In this document: one piece after another, positions 53,864 through 64,000 of the stretch
How the letters are laid out: each line of letters opens with the position of its first letter
How positions within the stretch are numbered: the first letter of the stretch is position 1
Assembly (NCBI GenBank): GCA_013204595.1
Contig: JABMNK010000133.1
Span: 62,001-126,000, forward strand
Reading direction: 5' to 3'
Origin: Flammeovirgaceae bacterium
Lineage (GTDB): Bacteria; Bacteroidota; Bacteroidia; Cytophagales; Cyclobacteriaceae
DNA: 64,000 bases
Notes under the pieces: generated by a model
What the model was told of the DNA's origin: nothing
What the model saw: only the letters and a program-made list of their open reading frames with translations
The model's database searches: none
Translations under genes and position numbers: made by a program

Positions 53864-54724
53864 CTAGGAATGCTGGGCCCATTCTTTTAAAAAGGACAAG
53901 CCCTGCACAGCAAAGTCGTCTTGTGAATCCGCAAAGGGTTTCCAAATACAAACGGCGTCCGAAAGTTCTTGAACATGTGGGGTGAAACTTTCAATGGAAA
54001 TAAATCCTTGGTAATCAATGGCTGTTAATCCTGCTTTTAAGCGGGCCCAATTGGTCTGTCCAGTTCCTGGAATACCTCTATGATTTTCAGACACTTGCAT
54101 ATGGATCAATCGGTGTCCAGCGGTATTCACTGCCTCTGCTAAATCACGCTCTTCGAGGGTCATATGAAAACTGTCCAAGAGTATTTTGGCCGAGGGACTA
54201 TCGATACATTCGATCAACTTGACCACGTCACTGCAGGTATTGATAAGATCCGTTTCAAATCGATTGAGGGGCTCTATGGCGATGGAAAGCCCTCTCTGTT
54301 GTGCTTGATGACATACCTTTTGCAAATTCCGGACGGCCAAATCAAATTCTTTTTTTCTATCTTCATCCGACAACCGTCGCGCTTTCCCTACGGCAGAATA
54401 AATGGGTCCAGCCAAGAAATTTGTATCCAAATAATTACAGATGTCAAAACATCTTTCGAGGTAATCAAAGCATTCCTGATGAATGGCCGGATCCGTATGG
54501 GTCAAATCTCGAGAGGGGCCAAATGCCCCACAAATGATGGGTATAAGTTGATGATCGGTTAAGGCAGTTTTAATGGTTTTTAAATCCAGAAGATCAGGAT
54601 CCTCAATGGCGATTTCTACTCCATCGAATCCCATTTTTTTAATTTTAGGGAACAAGGCAATGTGTTGGGTAGAAAAAGGGCTGGTCCATAGCCAGGTGCT
54701 GACAGCAAATTGTACCTCCATCAT
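53864..54724 (-). CDS. Sugar phosphate isomerase/epimerase-like TIM-barrel protein
   Basis: TIM-barrel protein of 286 aa in the AP-endonuclease-2/xylose-isomerase-like family. Metal-binding residues are seen in IAIEPLNRFETD near residue 146, ILLDSFHMTLEE near 181, the HMQVSENHRG segment near 208 and GFISIESF near 239. Relatives are D-psicose/tagatose 3-epimerases and enzymes acting on 3-keto-glycosides. The start is taken at the ATG overlapping the stop of the large upstream gene (ATGA), so it is translationally coupled to it. The substrate is unknown, but the context implies a sugar or keto-sugar. Confidence 0.83.
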   Translation of the reverse strand: MMEVQFAVSTWLWTSPFSTQHIALFPKIKKMGFDGVEIAIEDPDLLDLKTIKTALTDHQLIPIICGAFGPSRDLTHTDPAIHQECFDYLERCFDICNYLDTNFLAGPIYSAVGKARRLSDEDRKKEFDLAVRNLQKVCHQAQQRGLSIAIEPLNRFETDLINTCSDVVKLIECIDSPSAKILLDSFHMTLEERDLAEAVNTAGHRLIHMQVSENHRGIPGTGQTNWARLKAGLTAIDYQGFISIESFTPHVQELSDAVCIWKPFADSQDDFAVQGLSFLKEWAQHS

Positions 54725-57700
54725 TTCACGATTAAGATACCGTTCATTATGCGCCAATGACCTGGGAAGGTACAGACAAAAGGATAAGCTCCAGGGCGAC
54801 TGGGCGCTTTAAAGGTCAGTCTAACCCGATCATTGGGATTGAGTATGCGGGTTGCAAAAAGCACTTCTGTAATTTTGGGCACATAATTTTTTTCGGCGGC
54901 ATCTGGTGCGCTCATGAGGGCATCAGCAGCTTGCCCCACTACTTCCAATTTCCCGGGCGCAACGATAAGTAAATTGTGTTGCATAAAATCGGGATTTTCA
55001 AATAGAATACTGACTATTTTCCCTGCCGCTACCATTAAAGTATCTTGATTGAACTGCATTTTGAGTGGAATCGTTTTGAGCGTAAATTCAAAATCTGGCA
55101 CCAAAATTGTCGAACTATTGTCTGGTTCCTTGAATTCCGCCACTACATCTACCAATTCTTGACCAATCGGACCAAAGGGGATCGTGGAGGTAATGGGTGA
55201 CCATCCTATTGGATCCATCCCTAAACGAATACCACTGGTAAAAACGGAAGAAAATAAGCCAGGGGTTCGAACCGTAAGCACGGTGGAGCCATCTATTTTT
55301 AGCGTAGCCAGACCATTTTTCTGGAAAGTGAATTCAAATCCAAACCAATTAGAAGGTTTAAAAACAGCATGGCCTTGGTAGCTTTTTCCTTGTTGATTGA
55401 CCACAATGCGCCAATGATCTCGGTCCCTATACAAACCGTACCCGTTATTTTTGTCGCCATGCGCGATGAGCCTATTGGATCCTAATTCATCCGGTTTAGG
55501 GACCCAAATCCGACCGGTGATCTGAATTTCTTTTCCCATGATATCGGTCACATTAGCATCATATCCGTCTTTAGCTAAGGGCACAATTTGAGCGTTGAAA
55601 TTGGATTTTATTCTATGGGATAGGCCTTCTTTCGAATCGGTAGATGAAAGCTGATCCATGTTATAGGCTGTCAAATAGCCTTCTTGATGAATGAATGCCG
55701 ATGCTTGAAGTGCTTTTGAGAGCCATAAATCTTTAGCCACGTCGTCTAATTTACTTGACAAATAGATGATTTTCCCCATTTCAAGTGAATTTGGAAGCTC
55801 GATTGATTTGATAAAGGCGGCAAGTCGGGTATTCAGATCTGGATCATAAAATAGGCCAAGACCGATCAACTGATCAAGGGTTTCCTCGGTATTAGGCAAA
55901 GCTTGAAGTGACGCTTTTCGGACACCGGAATTTTCGTTTTTCAATGCCTTGTACAAGACATCCAATACTTTTGGGTCAGACAGTTTGTTCAAACCATTAA
56001 GGGTCCAAATGGCGTGTACGGCAGGAGCGTTGATATTGATCTCATCGGGTTTTGAGGTAGTGATCAGGTTCAAGAGGTCGTCTGTCAATTGATCATAATG
56101 ATTCTCAATGATGAGTCGTTGCGCATGTAACCGCCAAAATAAATTAGGGCTTTTGAGTCCAGCTAATAATGACGTTGGATCTTTGGGATCGAGCGCCGCA
56201 TGTTCCTCCGGTGCATTTAAATAGATGAGTCTATAAATCCTACCATGTGTCTTGTCTCTTAGCGGATTGACGTGCGCATTGCCTTTGCCATTTTCAAACC
56301 CTTTGGGAGTAGGGTTGTGCTGAACGATAAAATTGTACCAATCAAGGATCCACACATTTCCATCAGGACCTACGGTGCCTTGTATCGGCGCTATCCATTC
56401 GTCCGAACCAGCCAGCAGGTTCCATCCGTCTTTTTCCATAAATCCTGATCCATAGGGTTCAAAGAGGGCCTTGTGTAGCAAATGTCCAGTGGGCTCGGCT
56501 ATAAAGGCTATTTTGTTCCAATATTCCTTGGGATAAGAACGAGCTGTATAAAAACTATGCCCAGCAGCAGCAGTAAATCCACCAAAAACATCTACTTGTC
56601 GATAGTTTTTAGTGATAGGATGCATAAAATAATGCCCATCGAGTTTGGAGGCAACGTCTTTGCTGAATCCCATTACCCGACGCATGACTTTCTGAGGAAC
56701 ATTAACAAACGCCGTATGGGTGTTGTTGGCGGTAGAGACAAAGAGATCATTGTTTTCATTAAAGCCCAAGCCCCAAGTATTATTGGTAGTCATGGTATGG
56801 ACGGTCAATTGTTGATAATCTGTCGTCAAATTATAAACGGCTTGATCGAAGTGGTGCGTTTCTGAACCAATACTGCCGTCAAATCCTGAATAGCCCACCG
56901 TGCCCCAAATTTTATTATCGAATCCATAGGTAAGATTGGATGGACCCGCGTGGGTATCCGATATGCCCCAGCCGATATTAATGATCGTTCGTACATCTGC
57001 AATATCGTCGCCATCTGAATCCGCCAAAAACAAGAAATGAGGCGCCTGTGCCACCACAATGCCGCCGTTGACAAAAACAAAGCTGGTAGGGATGTTGAGA
57101 TGGTCGGCAAAAACCGTCATTTTATCTGCCTTTCCATCTCCATCAGTATCTTCCAAAATTTTAATTTTGTCATCTCCAATGCCGTCTTCTTCTCGGACTT
57201 CATTGGGATAGTCGACCGTTTCAATCACCCAAAGGCGACCTTTATAATCCCAATCCATATGTATCGGGTTGACGATCATCGGCTCGTGAGCAAAAAGGGC
57301 CAATTTAAAACCCGGAGGTACCTGTATGTGAGACATGGATGCCTCAGGTGTCAATGGGTCTTGTAATTGAGGAGCAGGATCTTTCTTTTCGTAATTGGGG
57401 ATCACGGCCTCTGTATAGGTCAATGGTGCTACAGGAAGGTTTTTGGCTAAGTTTTTGGCTTTTTCACCGACGGACCAAAAAATACCATTTTCGACAAGTT
57501 GCAGGAATTCGGCCTGCTCCCAGGTGCGCTGGTCATGGCCATATGCGGTATAAAACACACGTCCTTCACCCTCATTTCTGATCCAAGTCCAAGGTTCGTT
57601 TCGTTCTCCTTCTTTTCGGATCATCAATAGGGTCAGGTCATCGCCTAAGTTTTTGTGTACATACGTTTCATCGGTGGTTTCAAAGGGTGAAAGACCTTTC

Positions 57701-58161
57701 ATAATTACATGACTGGTATCTGAATAGTGAGCGGTAAATTGTTCAAATCCATGGCTATCAAATTGTCCTCCGATGGCCTTAAGGTATGCGGGTGCATTAC
57801 GAAAGCAGTGCGAGGCAGCATGTAAGGCAATCAAGCCTTTTCCGTTGCGAACAAATCCTAGTAAGGCGGATTCTTGAGAAGGTGCAATCGAATCATGATT
57901 GGCATAAATGATTAATCCATCAAATAGGGTTAGGTATTCCTTATTTAAATCCCCTAAATCTTCCGTATAGGTGATGTTGATGGCGGCTTTGGCTACGTGA
58001 GTAGCCAATAAGGGCATATAAGCAGCAGAATTGTGGTGCTCTGAAGCGTGACCTAAAAATAAAATCTCCAAGCGACGGGGTTGATCATAAGAGCTGCAGC
58101 TCATGATAACCAAAAGAAACATCAGGGTAATGCTTCCGTTATAAGAAATAATTTTTTTCAT
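54721..58161 (-). CDS. Multidomain redox lipoprotein: ThuA / PVC-type propeller / HEAT / LamG / azurin-like cupredoxin
   Basis: 1146 aa lipoprotein (lipobox near IMSC, residue 22). Order: ThuA-like domain (about 30-250; EILFLGHASEHHNSAAYMP, LIALHAASHCF); a PVC-type dehydrogenase beta-propeller (about 290-640; GRLWVIETVDYP, DTDGDGKADK); HEAT-like repeats (about 660-800); a LamG-like beta-sandwich (about 860-1000); and a C-terminal cupredoxin (about 1035-1146) with the azurin set of copper ligands: His in MQHN near 1058, then Cys, His and Met in the VCTFPGHWRIMNG run near 1130. Most relatives end in a CxxCH cytochrome; this protein has no CxxCH. It probably oxidises a sugar and passes electrons to copper. 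The ThuA and propeller identities are strong; the function is inferred. Confidence 0.82.
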   Translation of the reverse strand: MKKIISYNGSITLMFLLVIMSCSSYDQPRRLEILFLGHASEHHNSAAYMPLLATHVAKAAINITYTEDLGDLNKEYLTLFDGLIIYANHDSIAPSQESALLGFVRNGKGLIALHAASHCFRNAPAYLKAIGGQFDSHGFEQFTAHYSDTSHVIMKGLSPFETTDETYVHKNLGDDLTLLMIRKEGERNEPWTWIRNEGEGRVFYTAYGHDQRTWEQAEFLQLVENGIFWSVGEKAKNLAKNLPVAPLTYTEAVIPNYEKKDPAPQLQDPLTPEASMSHIQVPPGFKLALFAHEPMIVNPIHMDWDYKGRLWVIETVDYPNEVREEDGIGDDKIKILEDTDGDGKADKMTVFADHLNIPTSFVFVNGGIVVAQAPHFLFLADSDGDDIADVRTIINIGWGISDTHAGPSNLTYGFDNKIWGTVGYSGFDGSIGSETHHFDQAVYNLTTDYQQLTVHTMTTNNTWGLGFNENNDLFVSTANNTHTAFVNVPQKVMRRVMGFSKDVASKLDGHYFMHPITKNYRQVDVFGGFTAAAGHSFYTARSYPKEYWNKIAFIAEPTGHLLHKALFEPYGSGFMEKDGWNLLAGSDEWIAPIQGTVGPDGNVWILDWYNFIVQHNPTPKGFENGKGNAHVNPLRDKTHGRIYRLIYLNAPEEHAALDPKDPTSLLAGLKSPNLFWRLHAQRLIIENHYDQLTDDLLNLITTSKPDEININAPAVHAIWTLNGLNKLSDPKVLDVLYKALKNENSGVRKASLQALPNTEETLDQLIGLGLFYDPDLNTRLAAFIKSIELPNSLEMGKIIYLSSKLDDVAKDLWLSKALQASAFIHQEGYLTAYNMDQLSSTDSKEGLSHRIKSNFNAQIVPLAKDGYDANVTDIMGKEIQITGRIWVPKPDELGSNRLIAHGDKNNGYGLYRDRDHWRIVVNQQGKSYQGHAVFKPSNWFGFEFTFQKNGLATLKIDGSTVLTVRTPGLFSSVFTSGIRLGMDPIGWSPITSTIPFGPIGQELVDVVAEFKEPDNSSTILVPDFEFTLKTIPLKMQFNQDTLMVAAGKIVSILFENPDFMQHNLLIVAPGKLEVVGQAADALMSAPDAAEKNYVPKITEVLFATRILNPNDRVRLTFKAPSRPGAYPFVCTFPGHWRIMNGILIVK

Positions 58162-58394
58162 CTAGTGTTGAATTTAATGATAAAAGTTAGCCCAAAAGTC
58201 AATTTAATCCTAGCAATTCCGGAGCGAATGTGGATCGGATCTCAGAAGGCGAACATCAATGGGTCATTTCTATGGGTGCCCAAAGACTTTTTTGAATTTA
58301 AAGAAAGCGGATTGTTCCTGAGGTGATCCCGTTTATAGATTCTTTTTAGTTAATTGGGATCAGTGCGTTAGGTGACGGTGAGTTGCGTAACTCC

Positions 58395-59336
58395 CTAATG
58401 TGGTGCCCCGTCTGGGTTATAAGGGTTCAAATGAGACATCCAGTCCAGCATAAGTTCAGGCCATTTCATTAATTGGGGATCCTTTAGGCCAAGTGCAAAA
58501 CCATGCCCACCTATTGGGTAAATATGCATTTCTACGGACACATGGTGTTCTTTTAAGGCTGAAAAAAACATCAAGCTATTTTCTACAGGCACTGCCTGAT
58601 CATCCGCTGAATGTATCAGAAAAGTAGGAGGTGTGTTGGTCTTTACTTGGAGGTCATTTGAATAATAAAGACTTGATGCTTTGTCGGGATTCATTCCTAA
58701 TAAGGAATTGCGTGAACCCTCGTGCATGAAGGTGGTGCTCATGGAAATGACCGGATAGAGTAGGATCATAAAATCGGGACGGGCACTTAGGGTGTCAATT
58801 ACCTCTTCAATCAGAAATTTCTCTTCAAAATGGGTGCCTACGCTGGAGGCCAAATGGCCACCTGCCGAGAAGCCCATGATGCCAATTTGATTCGGCTGTA
58901 TGTCCCATTGGGCGGCATGGGATCTTACCAGTCTCATAGCCTGCAGCGCGTCCATTAAGGGAGCTTGGTGTGCGTTTTTAAAGGAAATTGCGTCTGGAAG
59001 TCTATATTTCAAAACAATACCTGCAATTCCTTTGGCATTTAACATTTTGGCAATGTCGGTACCTTCCCAATCATAGGCCAGTCCGGTATAACCACCGCCA
59101 GGACAAATCAAGACCGCTTGTCCTGTGGCATTTGCTTTGGTCGGTAGGTAAACCTCAATTGTAGGGTTTTGAACTTTTCGAATCCAGAGAATATCGGTTT
59201 GCTCCTTTATTTCTTTTGCATTGGTTTCGGTCCGATTAGGCACCTTGCTCCACAATTCGAGAATATCGGTTTGTGCGCGAGCAGCCATTAATATGGCCGT
59301 TAACGATAAGAATAAATAAAATCTTGTAGTATTCAT
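58395..59336 (-). CDS. Secreted acetyl-esterase-like alpha/beta hydrolase
   Basis: 313 aa with signal peptide (ending ARAQT). The oxyanion motif LICPGGGYTG near residue 74 and nucleophile in IMGFSAGGHLA near 155 match the esterase/lipase family that includes xylan acetyl esterases; acid Asp in HSADDQAVP near 246 and His in GGHGFALGL near 281. It may remove acetyl groups from glycans. 27 bp downstream of the beta-helix/cytochrome gene, in the same operon. Confidence 0.85.
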   Translation of the reverse strand: MNTTRFYLFLSLTAILMAARAQTDILELWSKVPNRTETNAKEIKEQTDILWIRKVQNPTIEVYLPTKANATGQAVLICPGGGYTGLAYDWEGTDIAKMLNAKGIAGIVLKYRLPDAISFKNAHQAPLMDALQAMRLVRSHAAQWDIQPNQIGIMGFSAGGHLASSVGTHFEEKFLIEEVIDTLSARPDFMILLYPVISMSTTFMHEGSRNSLLGMNPDKASSLYYSNDLQVKTNTPPTFLIHSADDQAVPVENSLMFFSALKEHHVSVEMHIYPIGGHGFALGLKDPQLMKWPELMLDWMSHLNPYNPDGAPH

Positions 59337-59363
59337 TGCAACGGAGGTAAAACGATTTTAAAA

Positions 59364-60851
59364 TTATTTTTCTAATGCCAACATGAATTTCGCCACTTCA
59401 AGAAGGGTTTCTTCATCGATATGACGTTGAGGGGGCATTTCCGGGTAATCGTCGCGCTTTTTAATAGGATTTGCCGCATATTGAGCAATGCCTTCTGGAT
59501 TATTGGCATATAGGATTTGCAGTGTTTTGGTAGCGGGTCCGATCATGCGAATGTCATAGGCGTGGCACCCTGCACAAATCCCGTAGTAGGTAAGCTGACT
59601 ACGCTCTTTGGCAGTGATTTTCCGAGCGATTACGGGTTCATCTAATAAAAATGTCTTGACAGTTCGTGAAGTAGTGATATCGGGTTCCGCATAAGAACCG
59701 ATACCAAAGCTTCGATATTTGCTTCGATTTCTAATGGTACTACCGATACCTCCTCCGACAGCCGCAATATCAGGTCCTAATTCGCTTAACTGCGTCAGCA
59801 TCAAAGCTTTCACTTCGGAAACTGGATCATTTCCATTGGAGTGCATGAAATTATCTAATATTGTCAATCGGTCCGGGTTGGGTTCTACCTCAGGATCTTT
59901 GGATACTTGTGCTCCAAAAGTCAAATCGGTGATGGCAATGCCTGCATTATCATTACCGGAAATGATATTGTTTTCAATAATGACGTCATCTGCTGCCATG
60001 ATCACGATACCGGTACCTCTTGGAATTCCCGACACCATGGATCCTGGGATGCCAAAATTTGGCGTATTATTATGTGCGATGAAGTTGTCTCTGATAATGA
60101 CATCATAAGTGGTTTTGATCGGTAGTCCTGGCGTAATAAAGACGAGAATCCCGCCGGTATTGTCGTGTACATTATTGCCTTCAACCAGTGCGTGTCGTGT
60201 ATTTTCAATTTCGATACCTGCTACATTATCGAATACTTCATTGAACTTGACATCTACATTATCGCACATGCCTACATAAATGGCGGCATCTTCAATTTTT
60301 GATAAGATATTGTATTCGATAAGGCCGTTTTTTCCAAATTCAGGAAAAATACCATAGACGCCCGTATCAACGATCCAATTGTGTCGGATGATAAAGTTGT
60401 TACCTGCTTGCCCCATGATGGCATTTCCTTTGTAATTAATGATTTTGAAGTTTTCAATAGTAATGTTATTACCAGAATAAAGAAAGGCATCATTTAGTTG
60501 CTTTTTGCCATCCAGAATTGGCCATTGGTCTTCGATAATAATGCCTTGTAGCGTGATCCCATCTTTATCAATATATACGGTTTCTTGATAAGTCCCAGGA
60601 AATACACGAATAAGATCGCCAAAGGTTGCCTGGGTCACGGCTTCCTGAATAACCTCCCCGTCCCGCACTTCAAAAATACTACCATTTATAGGATCATAGG
60701 AAACGGGAATTGTACCCGATGTTCCGCCATTTTCATTTTGATAGCTGATCGGAATAGGAATAATGGAGGGTGTGTTAAAGAAGTGTTTACCTAGCCAGAT
60801 CCCTAGCAGAAGGAGCAAGAGCCAGATTGATAATTTTTGTAATTTTTTCAT
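59364..60851 (-). CDS. Right-handed parallel beta-helix protein fused to cytochrome c
   Basis: 495 aa. An N-terminal membrane anchor (about 8-24) is followed by a right-handed beta-helix (about 70-330) with the repeated NNITIENFKI, NNFIIRHNWI, NGLIEYNIL and VIIENNIISGNDNAG strands. Then comes a class I cytochrome c domain with heme motif CAGCH at 426-430 and a likely Met ligand at 472 (PEMPPQ). Helices of this kind occur in pectate lyases and alginate epimerases. The fusion with a heme suggests that the glycan-binding helix delivers substrate to, or receives electrons from, the cluster. An unusual combination. Confidence 0.85.
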   Translation of the reverse strand: MKKLQKLSIWLLLLLLGIWLGKHFFNTPSIIPIPISYQNENGGTSGTIPVSYDPINGSIFEVRDGEVIQEAVTQATFGDLIRVFPGTYQETVYIDKDGITLQGIIIEDQWPILDGKKQLNDAFLYSGNNITIENFKIINYKGNAIMGQAGNNFIIRHNWIVDTGVYGIFPEFGKNGLIEYNILSKIEDAAIYVGMCDNVDVKFNEVFDNVAGIEIENTRHALVEGNNVHDNTGGILVFITPGLPIKTTYDVIIRDNFIAHNNTPNFGIPGSMVSGIPRGTGIVIMAADDVIIENNIISGNDNAGIAITDLTFGAQVSKDPEVEPNPDRLTILDNFMHSNGNDPVSEVKALMLTQLSELGPDIAAVGGGIGSTIRNRSKYRSFGIGSYAEPDITTSRTVKTFLLDEPVIARKITAKERSQLTYYGICAGCHAYDIRMIGPATKTLQILYANNPEGIAQYAANPIKKRDDYPEMPPQRHIDEETLLEVAKFMLALEK

Positions 60852-60863
60852 TTTTAAAAAGGG

Positions 60864-62039
60864 TTAGTCAACAGTTTTCATTACTAGTTGTGAAGGTAGT
60901 GTTTTGGGTATTTGAGGCTTAAAAGTCTCGTCTGTTAATGTTTTAAGGAAATCTACCAAACGATCCATTTCATATTGACTTAGGTTTGGTTCCCATATGT
61001 GCCAATGTAAATATAACTTTTCTGTTTCGGGGACTGCATGCCCCCTTCCTTGCGTATAAAAATGGACTGCTTCTTCCAGATTTTCAAATGTTCCGGAATG
61101 CATGTAGGGAGCTGTACGATCAATATTGCGAAGACTAGGGATTTTAAATCCACCGCGAAGGGTCTTGTCTTTAAAGGGTATTTCGGCGCCAGGATCAAAG
61201 GGCAGGCCTTCTGAATTAGGAGTTCCGATGACCGCTATTTGCTGATTGGTAAACAAGGGCGGCGTGTGGCATTCGGCACAGCGAGCCACAAAAGACCTGA
61301 AAACGTTGAGTCCTTCAATTTCTTTTTGTGTAAGAGCTTCGTGATAGCCATGTGCATATTGATCGTACCGACTGTTTAAAGAAATGAGTGAGGATTCGAA
61401 GGCTGCGATTGCGGTATAAATTTCTTCGATTTGGATTTGACGCGTTCGTTTTTTTGGAAAAGCTTGTTCAAACAACTGCTGATAAGCGGTTATTTTGTTC
61501 AAGGTTTCTATCAAAAGTTCAGGATTGGAGCCCATTTCATCTGGTCCAAATAAGGGGCCTTGCATTTGTTCTTCCAAGGAACGAGCCCTACCATCCCAGA
61601 AAAAAGATTTTAAATAAGCTACATTCCATAGAGAGGGTGCAGATCTCTTCAAAAATGCGCCTTTGAGGCCAATACTTTGGGGTTTCCCATCACTAAATCC
61701 AAAATCTGGATGATGACAAGAACCACAAGAAATGGTACCATCTTTAGACAAAATTGGATCAAAGAATAAATAGCGTCCAAGGTCTATTTGCTGTGGACTG
61801 AAGCCTTCTCGTACAGCAGGAAGCGCAGTTTTTAAACCGCCGACACCCTGATTTTGGAGGGATTCATACATCATATAAAGATTTCTTGATTGGCAAGTGT
61901 TGTCAGCGGTCAGTTCAAAGCCGGGCGGACAGTTGCAGGACAATTCGATGGTGGTTTTTAAAATCGCCTCTTTTGGATGAAAACGCATGAAAATTACCGT
62001 TCCAGTAAAAATCAAAAGGGATGCGAAAAGTAATTTCAT
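60864..62039 (-). CDS. Di-heme cytochrome c peroxidase / MauG family protein
   Basis: 391 aa with signal anchor and two heme motifs: CGSCH at 105-109 (low-potential heme) and CAECH at 254-258. The family residues WNVAYLKSFFWDGRA near 138 and LRNIDRTAPYMHSG are present. Members reduce hydrogen peroxide or, in MauG, modify a protein to make a tryptophan-derived cofactor. A short Cys-rich segment CNCPPGFELTADNTC (35-49) before the first heme looks EGF-like and is unusual. The ATG overlaps the stop of the c4-like gene by 4 nt. Confidence 0.9.
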   Translation of the reverse strand: MKLLFASLLIFTGTVIFMRFHPKEAILKTTIELSCNCPPGFELTADNTCQSRNLYMMYESLQNQGVGGLKTALPAVREGFSPQQIDLGRYLFFDPILSKDGTISCGSCHHPDFGFSDGKPQSIGLKGAFLKRSAPSLWNVAYLKSFFWDGRARSLEEQMQGPLFGPDEMGSNPELLIETLNKITAYQQLFEQAFPKKRTRQIQIEEIYTAIAAFESSLISLNSRYDQYAHGYHEALTQKEIEGLNVFRSFVARCAECHTPPLFTNQQIAVIGTPNSEGLPFDPGAEIPFKDKTLRGGFKIPSLRNIDRTAPYMHSGTFENLEEAVHFYTQGRGHAVPETEKLYLHWHIWEPNLSQYEMDRLVDFLKTLTDETFKPQIPKTLPSQLVMKTVD

Positions 62040-62734
62040 TCGGTCATTTCAACTGAACGAATATAAGCAATGACATCTTTAATTCCTTGATCCTCAGTCA
62101 ATGCAGATGACATCATTTGCATTTGATAGCCATAATTATCATCAGGATGTGATCCCCTGATTTCTAAAGAGAAGTTCCTGTATTGCTCATAAAGATACCA
62201 ATCATTGATCCCAGCGAGTTTAGGCGCATTCAAGGATTGATTTCCAATAGCCTTAGGACCGTGACAAGCGCCGCAAATCATTTGATATTGCTGTTCGCCC
62301 TTTAAAACATCGCCTTCGATAGTTTGGGTTGTGGTTACATTGGGTAAGCTTTTGATATGAGTAATAAGTTCATCTAATTCGGCATCGGTCTTGATTATTT
62401 TAACTGCAGCTGCCATTTGGATACCTTTTGCGTTTTTTTCATTGGTGCCGCGAATACCATTACGAAAATTGTTCAGCTGCCTCTTTAGATACCAAGCATC
62501 TTGATTGGACAAGGCGGGTGCCCCCAATGATGCATTTCCTTCCCCTAACGTCCCATGACAGGCGGTACAAGTTGTAAATAAATCCTTTATTTGACTGGGG
62601 GTAACATTTAGGGTCGCAGTCAACACAGTCGCGACAGAACTAGTTGCGTCTTGACTCACAGGATTATGGCAACTGATGAGTGTATAGCAGACGCATATCC
62701 AGAGGTAGGTGTGTATTTTATTCTTTTTTTTCAA
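62036..62734 (-). CDS. Di-heme cytochrome c4-like lipoprotein
   Basis: 232 aa from the TTG at 62734, which gives a lipoprotein signal (residues 3-22, TLISC); an alternative TTG at 62761 adds nine residues. Two class I cytochrome domains each contain a CxxCH: CTACH near residue 57 and CGACH near 160. The pseudo-repeat with DAWYLKRQLNNFRNGIRG and DWYLYEQYRNFSLEIRG is the c4 pattern. It is the first gene of the operon and probably the electron carrier that accepts electrons from the cluster's oxidising proteins. Confidence 0.85.
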   Translation of the reverse strand: MKKKNKIHTYLWICVCYTLISCHNPVSQDATSSVATVLTATLNVTPSQIKDLFTTCTACHGTLGEGNASLGAPALSNQDAWYLKRQLNNFRNGIRGTNEKNAKGIQMAAAVKIIKTDAELDELITHIKSLPNVTTTQTIEGDVLKGEQQYQMICGACHGPKAIGNQSLNAPKLAGINDWYLYEQYRNFSLEIRGSHPDDNYGYQMQMMSSALTEDQGIKDVIAYIRSVEMTE

Positions 62735-62831
62735 GCGATCATAAATTTGTATTACTACCAAAAATAGGGATAATCTTCGATTTATGTATTGCGATTTTTA
62801 TTGAGGACGGTCCACGACGCCGCAATTTTCT

Positions 62832-64000
62832 TTATTCTTGATAAATTGCCTGAAGTACTTCAGCTTTTCCATCAATGCCTTCTGGATTTCGTAGCCCCAA
62901 TATCTGAGTAACCAAGGGAAAAACGTGGATATTGTCAAAAGCGGGAATCTTGCTTCCTGATATGATATTGGGCCCCAAGGCATAAAAAATACCCCATAAA
63001 TCGGGCGTTTGACTTGCGTCATAGCCATGGACACCTACTGTATCGGTGCCGGAGCTACCAATAGTTCCTGAAATTTTATTTCTGAATTCAAATCCATTTT
63101 CGGCGATGAGCAATACTTGGCCTATTCTTTGATGGCTTCTATACCCCCATGCTTCAGGGGTTTCTTCTTTTTTCATTACCTTAAAATGGTTTTCTTGACG
63201 TTTGAGCGCGGCATAAGTTGAAGCTACCTTATCTGGATTTGAAATATAAAACTGAACCTGTGTCCCGCTATTGATCACTATCGTCGTACTATCCTTTTCA
63301 ATAGTTAATGCTGACAGATCAAGGTAGGATTCCTTTTTAAGTGATAGGGGGAACATTCCATGATCGGAAGTTACCATCAGATTGATTGGAAGATCAAGTT
63401 CTTGAATTTGATCCATTAAGCGACCGAGTAAACGATCAGCTTCTCGAACGCTTTGTTCCGTTTGGTCTGCCAAAGGTCCATGCTGATGACTTTTACTATC
63501 CACCAAAGAAAAATAGAGTGTAATAAAACGGGGCCGATCAATGGCAGGTAACTGTAGCCAATCGAGAACCTGATTAATTCGCTCCAAATTGGGAACGGAT
63601 CCGTCGTATATTTTATAATAAGTAGGCCATGACCCAGCAATGGGCGCTTCTGATCCTACCCAAAAATAGGAGGCCGTTTTAATTCCCGATTGTTGTGCAA
63701 GTTGCCATAATGGGAGCCCTCCGTAGAAATCAGGATCTTCCACTTTTGATCGGTCACTCATGCGGTAAATTGCCTTTTTTGATCGGTCGTAAAATTGGTT
63801 ATCCACCAAACCATGGTTTCCAGGCAGAAGGCCGGTAACTAGGGTATAATGATTTGGGAAGGTTTTACTAGGATAAGATGGGATCAAACCGCCACTTTGG
63901 GCACCTTGGGTAATTAATTTCTGGAAGTTGGGCAGTTGCCATCTTTCGACATAGTCATGTCTGAACCCGTCAAAAGAAACCAATACTACATAAGGCTCTT
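62832..64000 (-). CDS. Ectonucleotide pyrophosphatase/phosphodiesterase family protein (5' end outside window)
   Basis: The frame is open to the right edge, so the start lies beyond 64000; the visible part begins with EPYVVLVSFDGFRHDY. It is an alkaline-phosphatase-fold phosphodiesterase: the metal-binding Asp in VSFDGF, the catalytic Thr in YPSKTFPNHYTLVTG, and later metal residues in DSKSHQHGP and TSDHGMFP. Relatives hydrolyse nucleotide phosphodiesters or phospholipids. It lies about 100 bp upstream of the cytochrome operon and may belong to it. Confidence 0.85.
   Translation of the reverse strand, partial: EPYVVLVSFDGFRHDYVERWQLPNFQKLITQGAQSGGLIPSYPSKTFPNHYTLVTGLLPGNHGLVDNQFYDRSKKAIYRMSDRSKVEDPDFYGGLPLWQLAQQSGIKTASYFWVGSEAPIAGSWPTYYKIYDGSVPNLERINQVLDWLQLPAIDRPRFITLYFSLVDSKSHQHGPLADQTEQSVREADRLLGRLMDQIQELDLPINLMVTSDHGMFPLSLKKESYLDLSALTIEKDSTTIVINSGTQVQFYISNPDKVASTYAALKRQENHFKVMKKEETPEAWGYRSHQRIGQVLLIAENGFEFRNKISGTIGSSGTDTVGVHGYDASQTPDLWGIFYALGPNIISGSKIPAFDNIHVFPLVTQILGLRNPEGIDGKAEVLQAIYQE

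Follow-up and report, generated by a model that had tools for sequence, protein, structure and literature searches.

In a 64,000-nt window of a Flammeovirgaceae bacterium genome (assembly GCA_013204595.1, 3.0 Mb in 137 contigs; the window covers positions 62001-126000 of contig JABMNK010000133.1), six minus-strand genes between window positions 53864 and 62761 probably represent two independent redox modules, separated by the gene of an unrelated esterase, that have been joined in an island specific to this genome. Module A comprises the genes of a diheme c-type, c4-like cytochrome (62036-62761), a diheme enzyme of a distinct MauG/CCP subfamily (60864-62039) and a TIGR03805 beta-helix protein ending in a His/Met monoheme cytochrome c domain (59364-60851), hereafter called the fusion. 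Module B consists of the genes for a giant lipoprotein of 1146 amino acids (54721-58161) and for a ketose/keto-sugar epimerase-like TIM barrel of the AP_endonuc_2 family (53864-54724). Between the modules lies a gene for a BD-FAE/PaeX-like esterase with a signal peptide, predicted to be secreted (58395-59336). An earlier note on this DNA had read the six genes as a single set acting in one pathway.

Conservation of the gene neighbourhoods was followed separately for the two modules. For module A, a scan of genome contigs with the fusion gave 169 related loci, of which 80, from Flavobacteriaceae and Cyclobacteriaceae (Bacteroidota), Gammaproteobacteria, Alphaproteobacteria and Marinimicrobia, were kept and combined with five loci from whole genomes. 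For module B, 70 loci from across the phylum were compared, 69 of them with a called giant, and occurrence was scored in 390 genomes of the order Cytophagales. The 85 fusion loci contained mauG in 81 cases and c4 in 35, an epimerase homologue once (25% identity), no homologue of the esterase or of a phosphodiesterase encoded upstream, and no close relative of the giant; distant giant-like matches (~26% identity) were present in nine, mostly from Arenibacter and on the opposite strand. The 70 giant loci, in turn, held no fusion, no c4 and no esterase homologue, and two MauG homologues with only 33% identity. Among 59 relatives, full-length fusion and giant sit in different genomes, the window genome being the sole exception. 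In the order sample, G322 is the only further genome that carries both modules, at 4.53 and 2.17 Mb, about 2.4 Mb apart. Among the genomes compared, the modules are adjacent only in the window genome. The earlier note had named a lack of such linkage elsewhere as one of the results that would refute its proposal. Because other genomes do not keep homologues of the six genes together, the six-gene pathway is refuted as a unit; conservation divides the genes into two disjoint neighbourhoods, and the esterase goes with neither.

The place at which the modules meet could be located by DNA homology. In a sister species (G001), giant and epimerase genes are found on another contig at a different site, and window positions 53879-58212 share this cassette at 83% DNA identity; the homologous stretch ends within a 233-bp intergenic gap, 51 bp upstream of the giant gene. 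The modules thus divide near 58.2 kb, at the upstream limit of the giant-epimerase cassette, and the earlier suspicion that the gap splits the set in two was right. The six co-directional genes, the other intergenic gaps of 12 and 27 bp and both ATGA overlaps (62036-62039 and 54721-54724) were confirmed as well. A seventh co-directional gene, encoding a phosphodiesterase (62832-64085), lies ~70 bp upstream of these six and is the first gene of the run. Five congeners have, after the S9 peptidase gene found ahead of the island here, two different genes, and these lead on to the genes that in the window genome come after the phosphodiesterase. Because the congeners carry other genes there, the stretch from 53787 to the window end at 64000, and on to ~64307 beyond it, is a replacement island specific to the window genome among those compared. 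Scans for promoters and terminators gave hits at chance level only. As a side observation, the site between the S9 peptidase gene and the conserved gene block is variable in gene content when the window genome is compared with the five congeners.

By sequence, module A is a variant of the known pair of a beta-helix protein and an SO2930-family cytochrome (TIGR03805/TIGR03806). The beta-helix passes the TIGR03805 cut-off (196 versus 141.5 bits) and is preceded by an N-terminal hydrophobic segment, and the heme residues C426, C429, H430 and M472 of the fusion are invariant in 45 aligned homologues. In relatives, the TIGR03805 gene adjoins that of a TIGR03806 cytochrome; the eight proteins encoded between 51.8 and 64 kb gave no TIGR03806 match. 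The AlphaFold model of the fusion (pLDDT 84.7) showed a right-handed beta-helix of the ordinary kind, similar to those of alginate epimerases and lyases, and the matches of the beta-helix in a Foldseek search were right-handed helices of a generic type (AlgE4, alginate lyases, DFA-IIIase) that do not indicate a function. The c4-like cytochrome (two CxxCH motifs; PF00034, E 1e-23) has a lipoprotein-like N-terminus, and its start codon is uncertain, being TTG at 62761 or at 62734. The MauG-like gene (CCP_MauG, E 1e-55) and the fusion gene almost always abut, mostly with 40 bp or less between them in 68 measured pairs, and in the order sample mauG of the window subfamily occurred only in genomes carrying the fusion. 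Where c4 is present, it usually abuts or overlaps mauG. Tyr328, Trp148 and an HWH motif are conserved in the MauG-like enzyme.

In our reading, the oxidation carried out by module A would depend on peroxide or high-valent heme and take place at the beta-helix protein or on that protein itself, with the cytochromes carrying the electrons. It is possible, at somewhat below even chance, that the module is instead a respiratory peroxide-reducing unit, in which c4 and the beta-helix cytochrome supply the electrons for H2O2 reduction by the MauG-like enzyme and the beta-helix is only a polysaccharide anchor. Besides membership of the CCP/MauG family, the closest solved matches of the enzyme, which are bacterial CCPs, and the cytochromes encoded alongside speak for such a role, as does the fusion, in which no Trp is invariant as a modification target (W110 in 62 of 75 and W159 in 56 of 75 sequences). 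The sixth-ligand region would argue against it, as a MauG-type FY, in place of the CCP Met, aligns at or beside the Met of the CCP TMGR motif, although the alignment is gapped there; the strict pairing with a beta-helix is likewise unlike CCPs.

The same near-obligate gene pair would fit a protein-maturation role, in which the MauG-like enzyme oxidatively modifies a residue in its partner, the beta-helix/cytochrome protein, just as methylamine dehydrogenase is matured by MauG. This doubtful proposal draws on the MauG-like Tyr328 (71 of 71 sequences) and the conserved FWD Trp of the enzyme and on four invariant Tyr in the beta-helix. Known targets of MauG are Trp residues (PMC6405878), and the maturation role is weakened because the fusion has no invariant Trp, only the four Tyr. 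The enzyme also scored below the cut-offs of the MauG and MbnH equivalogs (TIGR03791, 195.6 versus 443.85 bits; TIGR04039, 220 versus 362.85 bits). We regard a peroxidase role with cytochrome donors and a protein-maturation role as about equally likely.

The genes downstream of module A (SusCD, aldehyde dehydrogenase, glycyl radical enzyme, carotenoid-type FAD enzyme) differ by genus and do not indicate a common substrate. In L122 and L136 (~11.4-14.8 kb), a glycyl radical enzyme gene follows the beta-helix/cytochrome gene, in L122 with a radical-SAM protein, probably its activase, in between. In L083, L086, L087, L123, L124 and other Flavobacteriaceae loci (11.4-18.5 kb; several genera), a SusC/SusD-like pair, a PKD protein and an aldehyde dehydrogenase nearest MdlD are encoded downstream. 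Module A was also seen in L102 and L136, which belong to metagenome-assembled genome records titled Chryseobacterium gleum and Chitinophaga pinensis. A distant giant-like PVC propeller protein is encoded near module A, on the opposite strand, in the Arenibacter loci L086, L087, L127, L130, L131, L133, L137 and L143.

The giant of module B combines, from the N-terminus, a ThuA domain (57454-58080; PF06283, E 8e-36, supported by alignment and by ThuA-like PDB chains), a DUF7133/Piru_Ver_Nterm propeller (56212-57378; PF23500, E 2.5e-111), HEAT repeats, a variable beta-sandwich and a C-terminal azurin/auracyanin domain (54724-55086; auracyanin A, E 2e-14), all encoded on the minus strand. The lipobox cysteine C22 is conserved, and the His, Asp, Glu and Tyr residues of the ThuA domain are invariant in the alignment. 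The propeller, which is the most conserved part of the protein, scored above the TIGR02604 cut-off (227 versus 122 bits); a CxxCH heme motif was found neither in the window giant nor in its 69 relatives. A candidate assignment of the propeller as an AA12-like pyrroloquinoline quinone (PQQ) dehydrogenase was dropped, the profile search against the PDB having given only WD40 repeats and chance matches. The type-1 copper ligands H1062, C1130, H1135 and M1139 are intact in the azurin domain and invariant in 29 homologues; the domain reached 29 bits in the azurin equivalog TIGR02695 (cut-off 105) and is nearer to auracyanin A. In five relatives azurin is encoded separately but close by, an argument for the copper domain being needed. 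The domain calls of the earlier note were upheld by domain scans for the cytochrome, CCP_MauG, the beta-helix with CxxCH, the esterase, the ThuA, propeller, HEAT and cupredoxin parts of the giant and the epimerase. Its LamG call was not: this domain is undetectable in the window protein, and Laminin_G_3 appears in 8 of 29 homologues only, in a swappable middle region that is GH2_N or CARDB in others.

The presence of the giant is closely tied to a dehydrogenase of the Gfo/Idh/MocA family, which in known pathways acts on 3-keto sugars. In the order sample the giant was present in 128 genomes and the dehydrogenase in 129, both together in 127, which leaves three exceptions (Fisher p ~3e-100, a value that overstates independence, the genomes being related). 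On the same strand near the giant gene, the dehydrogenase was encoded in 55 of the 69 loci and the epimerase in 45, with 44 loci having the two; an AraC regulator recurred in ~33. The homologue of the window genome (63% identity) is unlinked and lies on another contig. There (C46; L167:8753-13360), it is found ~100 bp downstream of the gene for a PVC-type protein with propeller and HEAT parts and a terminal c-type heme domain, as though this heme could take the place of the azurin. Solved chains nearest to the epimerase (PF01261, E 9e-36) are ketose 3-epimerases; it scored 171 bits in the D-psicose 3-epimerase equivalog NF051856 (cut-off 300) and falls within the wider fold family. Judged by sequence, epimerase and dehydrogenase are both devoid of a signal peptide. 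The dehydrogenase, represented by a relative's sequence, obtained 52 and 48 bits in the BT_2158 and BT_2159 families (cut-offs 750 and 650), and no DUF1080 match was seen in the giants. The near-obligate partnership of the giant with the dehydrogenase supports a keto-sugar route for module B, so that this suggestion of the earlier note is plausible for the giant-epimerase half and not for the module A half.

From these features, glycoside oxidation by the giant is plausible. The envelope lipoprotein would bind a glycoside and oxidise or cleave it with its propeller and ThuA domains, electrons would pass to its own copper domain and then to the respiratory chain, and the keto-sugar product would enter the cell and be made into a usable sugar by the epimerase and, through reduction or oxidation, by the NAD-dependent dehydrogenase. 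The periplasmic LacABC/DUF1080 route of Caulobacter, for which a transporter, two epimerases and a reductase matter as well, is a near parallel to this scheme (PMC9007349). We tentatively propose, at less than even confidence, an undescribed but widespread Bacteroidota pathway in which one lipoprotein oxidises an external glycoside, the electrons go to a fused copper domain, and a near-obligate cytoplasmic Gfo/Idh dehydrogenase together with the epimerase finishes the keto-sugar route, as a copper-terminated counterpart of LacABC-type pathways. Several observations weigh against this proposal. A same-strand neighbouring epimerase is missing from 24 of the 69 giant loci, profile comparison with the PDB yielded no credible solved relative of the propeller by sequence, and the single-sequence AlphaFold model of the propeller was unusable (pLDDT 31).

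An explanation that we consider rather unlikely is a giant without an oxidase role, in which the ThuA domain and the variable beta-sandwich would act on a 3-keto-glycoside supplied by another dehydrogenase and the copper domain would only take or give electrons for another enzyme. In its favour, the combination of ThuA with Gfo/Idh recalls the rhizobial ThuAB pair. In Caulobacter, hydrolysis of keto-glycosides in the periplasm has been proposed together with epimerases and a reductase (PMC9007349). Against a non-oxidising giant, the giant and the Gfo/Idh dehydrogenase are predicted in different compartments, and the strong conservation of the propeller argues for catalysis there.

A single extracytoplasmic pathway of six genes, by which a carbohydrate is de-esterified, oxidised and isomerised, could cite the common strand, the two ATGA overlaps, the short gaps and the position of every gene inside one island. 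It is very unlikely in view of the disjoint 85 and 70 loci, the distance between the modules in G322, the sister species having module B without module A, and the epimerase, which is cytoplasmic by sequence and does not allow for extracytoplasmic isomerisation. Two points count against the division into independent modules: all seven island genes are co-directional and closely spaced, so that they may be co-transcribed and newly cooperate in the window genome, and neither module has a known substrate or activity.

A description of module A or module B was not found in the literature searched. Both modules, read as electron-transfer systems of the envelope, are widespread and undescribed in that literature, and each resembles known parts. 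The false six-gene pathway is thus replaced by two testable units. Giant and Gfo/Idh dehydrogenase co-occur almost perfectly, and this points to a real function, one not described in the literature searched, in about one-third of the sampled genomes of the order, and the keto-sugar idea now rests on better evidence for module B than before. For module A, the strict pairing of the MauG-like enzyme with the fusion provides a handle on beta-helix/cytochrome gene families of unknown function.

When compared with known systems, module A shares with the TIGR03805/TIGR03806 pair, which contains an SO2930-family diheme cytochrome, the combination of a beta-helix with a c-type cytochrome and a function that is unknown. 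It differs in that beta-helix and heme domain form one protein and that the neighbours scanned, without TIGR03806, provide MauG-like and c4-like partners. Like MauG, MbnH and BthA (PMC6405878), the module A enzyme belongs to the CCP_MauG family and has a Tyr in the region of the CCP Met ligand and a conserved FWD Trp; unlike them, it is far under the equivalog cut-offs, has its own motifs (CPPGF, GRGH, HWHI) and is partnered by a beta-helix protein. The giant resembles PVC-type heme-binding CxxCH proteins (TIGR02604, DUF7133) in its propeller and HEAT parts and in passing the TIGR02604 cut-off, whereas the giants inspected are without CxxCH, have azurin as electron carrier and carry ThuA fused in front. 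The proposal for module B has an oxidation on the envelope side, followed by the action of epimerases and a sugar reductase, in common with the periplasmic 3-keto-glycoside pathways (Caulobacter LacABC with DUF1080; BT2157-BT2159; PMC9007349). It departs from them in that the giants are without DUF1080, the cluster is without a LacABC-type dehydrogenase, and the Gfo/Idh partner is far below the BT_2158 and BT_2159 cut-offs.

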